A stretch of 64,000 bases of DNA from Synechococcus sp. RS9916 (lineage in GTDB: Bacteria > Cyanobacteriota > Cyanobacteriia > PCC-6307 > Cyanobiaceae), in the NCBI RefSeq assembly GCF_000153825.1, contig NZ_DS022299.1:709216-773215 (forward strand), in the 5' to 3' direction. A program made the translations under genes and the position numbers. Below are positions 18,905-43,884 of the stretch, one piece after another. Each line of letters begins with the position of its first letter. The first letter of the stretch is position 1. The notes under the pieces were generated by a model. The model saw nothing but the letters and a program-made list of their open reading frames with translations, had not been told where the DNA came from and ran no database searches.

Positions 18905-19975
18905 GTGGCAGCGTCAGAGTCCAAGGATCGGCGAAGAATCAGTGTCGAACTTCCCGAATCACTGGTCACACGCCTGGACGCTCTCAAGGATGAATGGGGG
19001 CTAAGGGCCCGTGGCGACTGCCTGACCCGTCTGCTGGAAGAGATCTTCAAGAGCGATGAGGGGTTGGAGGATGATCATTCCCTTGCTGATACGCAGCAGG
19101 ATCCGATTGAGGATGCCGATGCGCCTGGTGGGATTGGTGGTACTGCAGAGCAAGACCAAGAGCAACAGTCGCGTTTCAACGAAGACCGGGCCCTGGTGCT
19201 GATCGGTCGACGAGACCTGGATCTTGCCAACGAACCCGATTTCGCTGATCCACCTCAGCCGAGGGTTAAACCGATCAGCTCCAATCAAGGCGGCATCGAT
19301 CTCCCGGGCTTTGTGCGTAAACGCACCAACGAAATCCGCGACAGCCTCCGCCAACCGGCTGAACCCGACCTCACCGTTGATGCGCCTTTGCTGCCTGCCG
19401 TTGACAGTCAAATCCTTCGCGAGAGTGCAGACGCCACATCCGAGCATTGGTTGAATCTCTACGGAAAGCCTGCCGGTGACACGGTGCTCGAGGCGGCGAT
19501 GACTTGGCTTGGCCGGGACATTTGGCCCCATGCTGATGGCACTGAAGGGCGCACGTTCACCTGGTCCCAAACACGACGGATTTTTGAACACATCAGTCCT
19601 GGATGGCTCGAATCAACCCCACGCTTCGATCAGGTCATTGTTGTCGCGGGGGTGCTGGAGGATCCTTTTGCATCGTCGGAGTTGGTCCACCGCATTCCCA
19701 CCTTGATTCGTCGGTTTGTGAATCGGTTTAAGCGCAGCCGCAAGGTGACCTCGTTCCAGACCCTTGAATCCACCATGACCGTGCATGGCGCGTTGAAATT
19801 ACTCCACCTTCCAACGACTGCAGGCGCTTCCCTGACGCTGAAGGCGATCCGTGAGGCCTACAAGCAACAAGCACTCGAAACCCATCCCGATGCGGGTGGT
19901 TCGACCGAGGAAATGCGCCGGCTCAACGAGGCCTACCAAATGCTGCGGGAGCTCTATCGCCAGAAAACTGCATAA
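18905..19975 (+). CDS. ribbon-helix-helix plus J-domain protein
   Basis: A 356-residue protein with an unusual arrangement. Residues about 8-46 (RRRISVELPESLVTRLDALK and on) look like a ribbon-helix-helix dimer DNA-binding motif. The centre is acidic then globular (TWLGRDIWPHADG, FDQVIVVAGVLEDPF). Residues about 300-353 form a J-domain with the HPD tripeptide (LETHPDAGG) that stimulates DnaK. There is no G/F or zinc-finger region. The start is GTG at 18905. It may recruit DnaK to a DNA-bound or protein partner; that is inference. Confidence 0.75.
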   Translation: MAASESKDRRRISVELPESLVTRLDALKDEWGLRARGDCLTRLLEEIFKSDEGLEDDHSLADTQQDPIEDADAPGGIGGTAEQDQEQQSRFNEDRALVLIGRRDLDLANEPDFADPPQPRVKPISSNQGGIDLPGFVRKRTNEIRDSLRQPAEPDLTVDAPLLPAVDSQILRESADATSEHWLNLYGKPAGDTVLEAAMTWLGRDIWPHADGTEGRTFTWSQTRRIFEHISPGWLESTPRFDQVIVVAGVLEDPFASSELVHRIPTLIRRFVNRFKRSRKVTSFQTLESTMTVHGALKLLHLPTTAGASLTLKAIREAYKQQALETHPDAGGSTEEMRRLNEAYQMLRELYRQKTA

Positions 19976-19981
19976 CCCACT

Positions 19982-19997
19982 TGTCTCTAATGAGACA
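19982..19997. repeat. dyad A: TGTCTC-N4-GAGACA
   Basis: A perfect 6-base inverted repeat with a TAAT centre. It shares its core with dyad B about 145 bases downstream but in the opposite arm order. A partly matching inverted copy (TGTCTCGTATG, read on the minus strand) ends near 20184. Confidence 0.7.
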
Positions 19998-20140
19998 CTT
20001 AACGAGTCCCGTAGCAAGTCTCAAAAGCGTCTGTTGCGCTCCATCGCGCCCTGCTTCAAGCGCGCCATCCCAATAGAAGGCGGAGAGTTGGGAGTGACTC
20101 CCTCCTCAACCGCCGAGGGCTTGCCTTTCCCTTGTCTTGG

Positions 20141-20163
20141 ATGAGACGCATATCTAGTCTCAT
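20141..20163. repeat. dyad B: ATGAGAC-N9-GTCTCAT
   Basis: A perfect 7-base inverted repeat around a 9-base centre (GCATATCTA). The architecture is the same as dyad D (AGAC-N9-GTCT), with GAGAC in place of AAGAC. Confidence 0.7.
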
Positions 20164-20613
20164 GAGTAGCCACATACGAGACACCAAAGGGAGAGTCTTG
20201 CTAAATCACCTCTGCCCCCTAAGGCGCTGAATTGAGGCGTGGTCAACGATTGCCTCAAAATCACTTTTTTTGCTATTTCTATTTGCACCGCTGTTGTTAG
20301 GGCAGTCCAGCCTGAGTCTTGATCGCAATTGCCGCCGATGCGACCTAGCCCCATCCGCAAGCCTTAAAAGGCATGTCCATCAAGCAGCTTGTCCATGTCC
20401 ACCATCTGGCTCGTCCAGGCAAAAGTATTGGAATGACTGATTTTTAGGAACCCGCGTACCTGCTGTAGACACAGATACGCAGGCTGAATCTCAAAGGTTT
20501 TTGCCTTTCCGGCTTTCAGTCGATCGATCCAGCCCTGGCCTGGAACCCGAGCTCGAGGTGCCGAGAGCGAATGCGAAACCTGTGCGCAGCTGACTCAAGT
20601 TGGTCTCTTTCCT

Positions 20614-20641
20614 GGTCTTGCAAAAAGTCTTACCCAAGACC
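20614..20641. repeat. dyad C: GTCTT-N4-AAGAC, inside a wider inverted repeat
   Basis: The inner hairpin GTCTT-ACCC-AAGAC (20627-20640) lies inside a wider inverted repeat, GGTCTTG (20614-20620) with CAAGACC (20635-20641). The 4-base centre matches dyad A. Confidence 0.6.
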
Positions 20642-20752
20642 TGCGAGCACTGATAGGCACTCGAAGCCGCATTCATCAGCCAAGAAAACGGAGTCCTAAG
20701 GCTGGCCCAACGCAGGCCTTCATTGAATCAGAAGGGAATCTCACAAGTCGCG

Positions 20753-20777
20753 GATAAGACAGGTTGCAAGTCTTATC
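20753..20777. repeat. dyad D: GATAAGAC-N9-GTCTTATC
   Basis: A perfect 8-base inverted repeat around a 9-base centre (AGGTTGCAA). It mirrors dyad B in layout and follows dyad C as B follows A. Confidence 0.7.
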
Positions 20778-20832
20778 ATGCGTCACTAATGAAATTCGTG
20801 AATTGGACAATCGATATCGCGCCGGATAAAGC

Positions 20833-20847
20833 CGGTGCTTTGCACCG
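20833..20847 (-). terminator. hairpin after apcD
   Basis: On the minus strand CGGTGC-AAA-GCACCG forms a 6-bp stem 25 bases past the apcD stop, followed by GC and then TTTAT. The T-run is short, so termination would be weak; it is a plausible but unproven apcD terminator. Confidence 0.4.
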
Positions 20848-20871
20848 CTCGGTAAACCTTGCTGAAAGAGA

Positions 20872-21366
20872 TCAGGTTGAGGTCTGCATGCCCTGAATCA
20901 AGAAGTCGAAATAAGGTGCGGCCAACGTTTGTTGGTCATCAGAAAGCAGACCTAAGGAGGCTTCGCGCATTGACTTCATGGCTTCAACCATGCCGGGCAT
21001 CGGAACGCCGAGGCTGTTGTACATCTCACGGGCACCGACAAGACCGATGTTTTGAATCATCTCGGTGCTACCGGCGAGGACGCCGTAGGTCACGAGGCGG
21101 AGGTACCAGCTGTAATCACGCAAGCACTGAGCACGTTGCTTCTGACCATATGCATTCCCGCCAGGCGCCACATATTCAGGTTTACGACTGAAGAGCTGCT
21201 TCGCAGACTCATCAACAATCTTCTTCTCGTTATCTGTCAGAACGCGAACGATTGAGAGACGAATGCCGCCTTGGTCGAGGTAATCAACCATGGAGCGCAA
21301 TTCACCGCTTGTGGGGTAGCGGAGATCGTCATCGGCTTGAAGAATCAGATCACGAACGACGCTCAT
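20872..21366 (-). CDS. apcD: allophycocyanin B alpha-type subunit (terminal emitter)
   Basis: A 164-residue phycobiliprotein of the phycobilisome core. I assign ApcD over ApcA/ApcB/ApcF from the ADDDLRYPTSGEL N-terminus, DNEKKIVDESAKQLF, and PGGNAYGQKQRAQCLRDYSWYLRLVTYG. The cysteine of QCLRD is the phycocyanobilin attachment site. ApcD acts as a low-energy emitter that passes excitation mainly towards photosystem I. The start at 21366 (MSVVRDLIL) is preferred over the ATG 12 bases upstream. It is divergent from rlmD across 80 bases that must hold both promoters. Confidence 0.92.
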   Translation of the reverse strand: MSVVRDLILQADDDLRYPTSGELRSMVDYLDQGGIRLSIVRVLTDNEKKIVDESAKQLFSRKPEYVAPGGNAYGQKQRAQCLRDYSWYLRLVTYGVLAGSTEMIQNIGLVGAREMYNSLGVPMPGMVEAMKSMREASLGLLSDDQQTLAAPYFDFLIQGMQTST

Positions 21367-21446
21367 GACGGCTGGCATGCTGAGGTGACTTTAGTGCGCT
21401 CAAGCCCTGAAACCGCTCGAGGCGGCTTGGGTGTAACGCCTTTGCA

Positions 21447-43710: not shown

Positions 43711-43884
43711 ATGGCTGTACCTAAGAAGAAAACCTCCAAGAGCAAGCGCAATCAGCGTCATGCCGTGTGGAAGGCCAAGGCAGCGACCGCCGCGCAACGC
43801 GCCATGTCCATCGGCAAGTCTGTGCTGAGTGGCCGCGCTCAGGGCTTTGTCTACCCCGTTGCTGAAGAAGACGGCGAAAGCTGA
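43711..43884 (+). CDS. rpmF: 50S ribosomal protein L32
   Basis: A 57-residue L32 encoded from ATG 43711 ([20 protein letters not shown]) to TGA 43882-43884. The basic N-terminus and the length match the family; the tail ends [10 protein letters not shown]. The zinc ribbon is not present. It is divergent from ftsH, and its stop abuts the stop of the convergent glycerate kinase gene. Confidence 0.93.

Follow-up and report, generated by a model that had tools for sequence, protein, structure and literature searches.

What are the four short dyads that lie between two gene ends in Synechococcus sp. RS9916? They occupy the convergent intergenic space at 19976-20871 of the window (the whole stretch of 64,000 nucleotides that was analysed), which holds no gene, and each is exact and lies where a preliminary description had placed it (Table 1). 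Comparison across genomes suggests that in picocyanobacteria the replication terminus quite probably carries a dif-type recombination locus, and that the dyads belong to the accessory-site array that forms its outer part. The locus is conserved in these organisms (Synechococcus, Cyanobium, and Prochlorococcus-like genera), and its overall layout of a core, GTCCA sites, and flanking arrays is common to several genera.

Table 1. Features of the intergenic locus and its bounding genes (positions in the window).
Feature	Position	Strand	Description
RHH/DnaJ fusion gene	18905..19975	+	N-terminal ribbon-helix-helix, C-terminal DnaJ domain (HPD motif); candidate array binder
Dyad A, GTCTC-TAAT-GAGAC	19983..19996	.	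Exact match; forms the first array cluster with 20018-20022
Second array cluster	20134..20199	.	GTCTT 20134, GAGAC 20143, GTCTC 20157 (dyad B), GAGAC 20178, GTCTT 20195
Dyad B, GAGAC-N9-GTCTC	20143-20161 (20141-20163 including 7-bp arms ATGAGAC..GTCTCAT)		Exact match
Candidate arm-type sites GTCCA	20375..20417	+	At 20375, 20391, 20397, 20413; offsets -79, -63, -57, -41 from core start
Core site GCGTACCTG-CTGTAGACA-CAGATACGC	20454..20480	.	Candidate cyanobacterial dif-type recombination site
Third array cluster	20603..20640	.	GTCTC 20603, GTCTT 20615, GTCTT 20627, with dyad C
Dyad C, GTCTT-ACCC-AAGAC	20627-20640		Exact match
Fourth array cluster, dyad D (AAGAC-N9-GTCTT at 20756-20774)	20753..20777	.	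8-bp arms GATAAGAC-N9-GTCTTATC
Allophycocyanin-family phycobilisome gene	20872..21378	-	Convergent, bounds the locus; Pfam Phycobilisome E 1e-57

The unusual feature of the region is the clustering of dyads, not the single N9 dyad. Dinucleotide shuffles bear out the earlier contention that four such dyads exceed chance: none of 5000 gave two N4 and two N9 dyads, and 4976 of the 5000 shuffles of 19976-20871 contained no such dyad at all. RAGAC/GTCTY pentamers number 15, against 3.9 ± 1.9 in shuffles (about a four-fold excess). Array density was measured over the surrounding 400 kb, with a pattern search in five genomes; within these 400 kb, perfect GTCTY-N4-RAGAC occurs only as A and C, and perfect RAGAC-N9-GTCTY only as B, D, and one further place. 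Lone N9 dyads are unremarkable genome-wide (11 in genome G000 versus 18 for a control pattern). A matS-like scatter of single N9 dyads across the terminus was considered and rejected, the other copies being at chance level.

Parts of the preliminary description need revision. It saw two duplicated modules differing by one base per arm; these are not a duplication, additional sites lie at 19992/20018, 20134/20143, 20178, 20195, 20603, and 20615, and GAGAC and AAGAC, both present as reported, are versions of one degenerate motif, RAGAC. The sequence GCAAGTCT, described as shared near 20014 and 20766, is found at both positions and in a third copy at 43814. Both spacings come back in related genomes: across 27 genomes of the genus, the N9 spacing occurs 27 times and the N4 spacing 22 times (0.13 and 0.09 expected), counts that are not independent since these genomes are mutually related. 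The N9 and N4 spacings are also found 21 and 9 times, respectively, in 28 genomes of other genera. In the 27 genus genomes, there are 165 copies of GTCTC/GAGAC where 47 would be expected, and 93 of GTCTCA where the expectation is 14.7; in genomes of other genera, GTCTCA is observed 80 times against 15.3.

Spacing within the array is quantised. RAGAC is followed by GTCTY at 14 bp 27 times and GTCTY by RAGAC at 9 bp 22 times in the genus genomes, with further preferred spacings of 12, 18, 23, and 35 bp, while shuffles give each spacing 0.1 to 0.3 times (maximum 3). Of all neighbour classes in the array, the N9 and N4 dyads are the two most frequent; the array clusters lie about 250-350 bp to the left of the core and about 100-200 and 250-400 bp to its right. 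Because the spacing is quantised, the letters between sites vary while the distances hold, and the pattern is conserved in many genera, the array elements are candidate protein-binding sites. The earlier suggestion of operator sites thus survives as far as protein binding is concerned, but not as promoter operators, since both genes end here.

Gene neighbourhood makes the RHH/DnaJ protein the best candidate for the array binder, a proposal to which we give somewhat less than even weight. In other genera, almost every locus checked has its gene next to the core, and of 17 homologues, all match the Pfam model DnaJ and 10 match RHH_1 (best E 9.7e-6). In its own genome the protein is recognised only by its DnaJ domain; the N-terminal ribbon-helix-helix is conserved across the family. 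The product of the convergent gene is nearest to NCBIfam ApcA, below the cut-off of that model.

The preliminary description saw the dyads but missed both the core between them and the terminus location of the locus. When the DNA of 31 genus genomes was searched, the region proved almost unalignable save for about 30 bp at 20454-20480. Allowing up to three mismatches, the core is found in 27 of the 31, in one copy each, and a reversed control pattern in none; its gene neighbourhood is conserved in 16 of 16 other matching genomes, the upstream gene lying past the contig end in one. The family as a whole has it in 107 genomes out of 399, spread over 15 of 50 genera (reversed control 0), a count that includes a few extra or chance matches at two mismatches. 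The core is a single-copy site with two inverted arms of 9-11 bp around a centre of 7-9 bp; here it is a 27-bp inverted repeat with 9-bp arms and a 9-bp centre, which extends to a 10-7-10 arrangement in genome G003. This is the geometry of a dif site, in which two inverted arms of about 11 bp surround a centre of 6-8 bp.

The two arms vary together. Of 40 distinct cores, 27 read CC, TT, or AA at arm position 6, at least 36 have the remaining eight positions paired alike, and some genera have a perfect inverted repeat, GCGTACCTG-N9-CAGGTACGC. In AT-rich Prochlorococcus-like genera, the arms are CGTAACTG..CAGTTACG or CATAACTG..CAGTTATG. With a pattern that allows AT-rich arms, CGTAACTG-N9-CAGTTACG is found beside the same dnaJ-like gene; since this pattern yields chance matches at two mismatches, only sites adjoining that gene were counted. 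A targeted and weaker look at the largest Prochlorococcus-like genus gave GTACTG-N9-CAGTAC downstream of the dnaJ-like gene, with GTCCA at -55.

Position on the chromosome agrees with a terminus site. The distance from dnaN to the core, measured in 13 single-contig genomes, is 0.465-0.524 of the circle; in cyanobacteria such as S. elongatus (PMC3480399), dnaN adjoins oriC. In RS9916, cumulative GC skew, followed over 400 kb, reaches its maximum at 723,346, about 6 kb from the core at 729,669. One copy at the replication terminus is what a dif site should show, with the proviso that this position is common to the neighbouring genes, places the locus and not the core alone, and is not independent of synteny. 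Our judgement, which is not a computed value, is that a dif-type locus at the terminus is quite likely.

The presence of arrays on both sides of the core at the terminus would also suit a replication fork trap, in which the dyads would be sites for a Tus- or RTP-like terminator protein and the core would be incidental. Such a trap is unlikely: no part of the locus is better conserved than the core, which has the geometry of a recombinase site, the array dyads are symmetric and lack the polarity of a one-way block, and we know of no Tus- or RTP-like terminator protein in these genomes.

One tyrosine recombinase of about 400 aa is common to all 24 near-complete genomes of the genus, with orthology of the matches confirmed by alignment for ten, and four genomes (G002, G010, G020, and G030) have no second PF00589 match. 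Homologues occur in Prochlorococcus, Cyanobium, and Vulcanococcus, and in the five loci read, the gene adjoins a methyltransferase gene and a cobalamin-type gene. This single enzyme likely acts on the core, the two being linked by co-occurrence; Synechococcus WH7803 (G002), for example, has both. It reaches the cut-off of none of the NCBIfam Xer models (17 of 267 bits for XerS, 12.5 versus 329.6 for XerD), and a single conserved recombinase stands in place of an XerC plus XerD equivalog pair. The predicted fold is nearest to XerA, XerH, and lambda integrase (Foldseek 4.7e-6 versus XerA and 1.2e-4 versus full-length lambda integrase 1z1g), with an overall pTM of 0.47 that leaves the domain arrangement uncertain.

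The recombinase carries an extra N-terminal domain, predicted as an alpha-beta-beta-beta-alpha fold (AF2 pLDDT 95.5). VIA-align gives it a weak Z of 4.3 with the arm-type domain 3ju0 (HAI7), unrelated folds reaching 5.8, and does not list the lambda and Tn916 arm domains. Its match to Pfam Arm-DNA-bind_2 is below the cut-off (E 0.077, 13.4 of 22 bits), an arm-domain profile run against solved sequences gave no match, and Foldseek with the isolated domain found nothing at E 0.001.

The DNA beside the core offers candidate sites for such a domain. Of 55 host loci, 45 have GTCCA at -55 to -57 and 38 have it at -76 to -80, on one side of the core only; the background is 0.15 loci per 3-bp window, with a maximum of 2. 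Loci were turned with the GTCCA-richer side to the left, which favours the side but not the exact offsets. Among 11 Prochlorococcus-like loci, GTCCA lies at -56 in nine and at -67 in seven. With intervals close to 11 or 22 bp, the sites fall on the same face of the helix, and their offsets put them at fixed distances from the core, as expected of arm sites for an arm-binding recombinase. GTCCA stands about an even chance of being the arm site of this enzyme.

FtsK, the translocase that activates Xer recombination elsewhere, was sought with PF01580: above the cut-off it is found in 0 of 31 genus genomes, with positive controls in E. coli and others. This concerns PF01580 FtsK, and a divergent or HerA-type translocase is compatible with the result. 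The only FtsK_SpoIIIE-like match below the threshold in the genus is at G025:C1:2033344-2033457 (L291), with 20 bits versus a cut-off of 24 in a 915-aa frame.

Exact core arms also occur in viruses. Fifty IMG/VR contigs (L215-L264) carry them, one clearly a T7-like phage, and these may come from phages that borrow the host recombinase in an IMEX-like manner. None of the 50 has the host neighbour genes or a close recombinase relative near the site, and PF00589 is present in one. Many show GTCCA in similar phase, none has a rich GAGAC array, and the phage core spacers are mostly unlike those of hosts (1 of 38 types shared). Named phages searched with core and arm DNA gave chance matches only. 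A Prochlorococcus-like genome (G076) contains a second core-like site (L276:1480-1660) away from the dnaJ locus and near glyQ, with several (T)GGACA repeats after it at intervals of about 11 bp; the site resembles a mobile-element version of the core.

These viral arms, the T7-like phage, and the second site of L276 with its TGGAC repeats at 11-bp spacing away from the dnaJ locus could mean that the core is an attB for phages or islands and not a housekeeping site. This, too, is improbable, because almost all genomes examined have the host site at a single syntenic terminus locus with no element inserted, and this site has chromosome-specific arrays that the phage sites lack; phage use of dif elsewhere is secondary. 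The phage copies suggest that viruses exploit the system.

That the dyads are operators, bidirectional terminators, or small RNAs serving the convergent genes is very improbable: they can be drawn as hairpins in a region between two gene ends, but both flanking genes end here, so that no promoter is controlled, no promoter-like site is seen, the RNA fold z is -1.06, the one terminator-like match is at chance level, and the direct repeats of fixed spacing go unexplained. Promoter and terminator scans of the region gave no signal beyond that match, which is expected by chance. The structured RNAs raised in the preliminary description found no support in this z-score, in the missing promoter-like site, or in Rfam, where a scan at gathering and relaxed thresholds gave no family and no match in the region above the gathering score. 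Its decayed MITE ends fare no better: each genome has a single such locus, the genes around it are conserved in the genus and in other genera, and the RS9916 genome has no second copy, whereas MITE or transposon ends would be present several times per genome, with terminal inverted repeats and target duplications.

The dif-type reading suggests how the locus may work. The core-binding and catalytic domains of the recombinase would bind the core arms, its N-terminal domain would bind the GTCCA sites in the way of lambda integrase, and the enzyme would resolve chromosome dimers at the core. Less certainly, a second protein, most likely the RHH/DnaJ neighbour, may bind the RAGAC/GTCTY array, thereby folding or holding the terminus, and give the reaction its direction where FtsK would otherwise do so. 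At this locus, one recombinase can probably separate joined chromosomes unaided by the usual helper, FtsK. More tentatively still, and rather doubtfully as a whole, it may represent a new type of chromosome resolution, in which a housekeeping tyrosine recombinase with an arm domain acts on a dif-like core with one-sided arm sites, RHH/DnaJ coats the arrays on both sides for terminus organisation and direction, and FtsK is replaced across picocyanobacteria.

A survey of genomes for dif was unsuccessful in all Cyanobacteria (PMC3025954); a later publication states that none is predicted in the phylum (PMC6416890), and xerC has been called rare there (PMC5101192). No earlier description of this terminus locus was found in the literature searched, within its limits, and the locus is probably the missing cyanobacterial dif-type site, previously unrecognised. 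It bears on chromosome resolution and segregation in ecologically dominant cyanobacteria and supplies exact sequences for testing (core, arm sites, recombinase, and candidate terminus-binding protein). Published classification separates simple chromosomal from arm-binding mobile-element recombinases and notes a separate subgroup of the simple kind, "Cyan", in other cyanobacteria (PMC8138268). If the arm-type domain is real, a housekeeping recombinase that carries one would cut across that split.

Among known systems, XerCD/dif, XerH/difH, XerS/difSL, and archaeal XerA/dif share with the cyanobacterial locus a site of about 28 bp with inverted arms, in one copy at the terminus. XerA and XerH are nearest to the cyanobacterial recombinase in predicted fold, and XerA is described as FtsK-independent (PMC5357621). 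The differences are a recombinase below the NCBIfam Xer cut-offs, its extra N-terminal domain, FtsK not being detected, and the one-sided GTCCA sites and arrays spread over about 0.9 kb. Lambda-type integrases resemble the system in the core with phased arm sites and in a three-strand N-terminal domain in the arm-binding position; the cyanobacterial locus is, however, chromosomal, single-copy, vertically inherited, and not mobile, and homology of the arm domain is weakly supported. The plasmid resolution sites cer and psi likewise join a Xer-type core to accessory DNA, about 180 bp that imposes resolution only (PMC5357621), whereas the cyanobacterial locus is chromosomal and has other accessory sequences. 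The likeness to MatP/matS is in idea only, a ribbon-helix-helix protein at symmetric terminus sites, and a literature search on MatP in cyanobacteria found nothing relevant. MatP has a ribbon-helix-helix fold; the cyanobacterial RHH is fused to DnaJ, and its putative sites are clustered at one locus with a GTCTCA-N2-TGAGAC-like motif, whereas matS, GTGAC-N3-GTCAC, is scattered through the Ter region.
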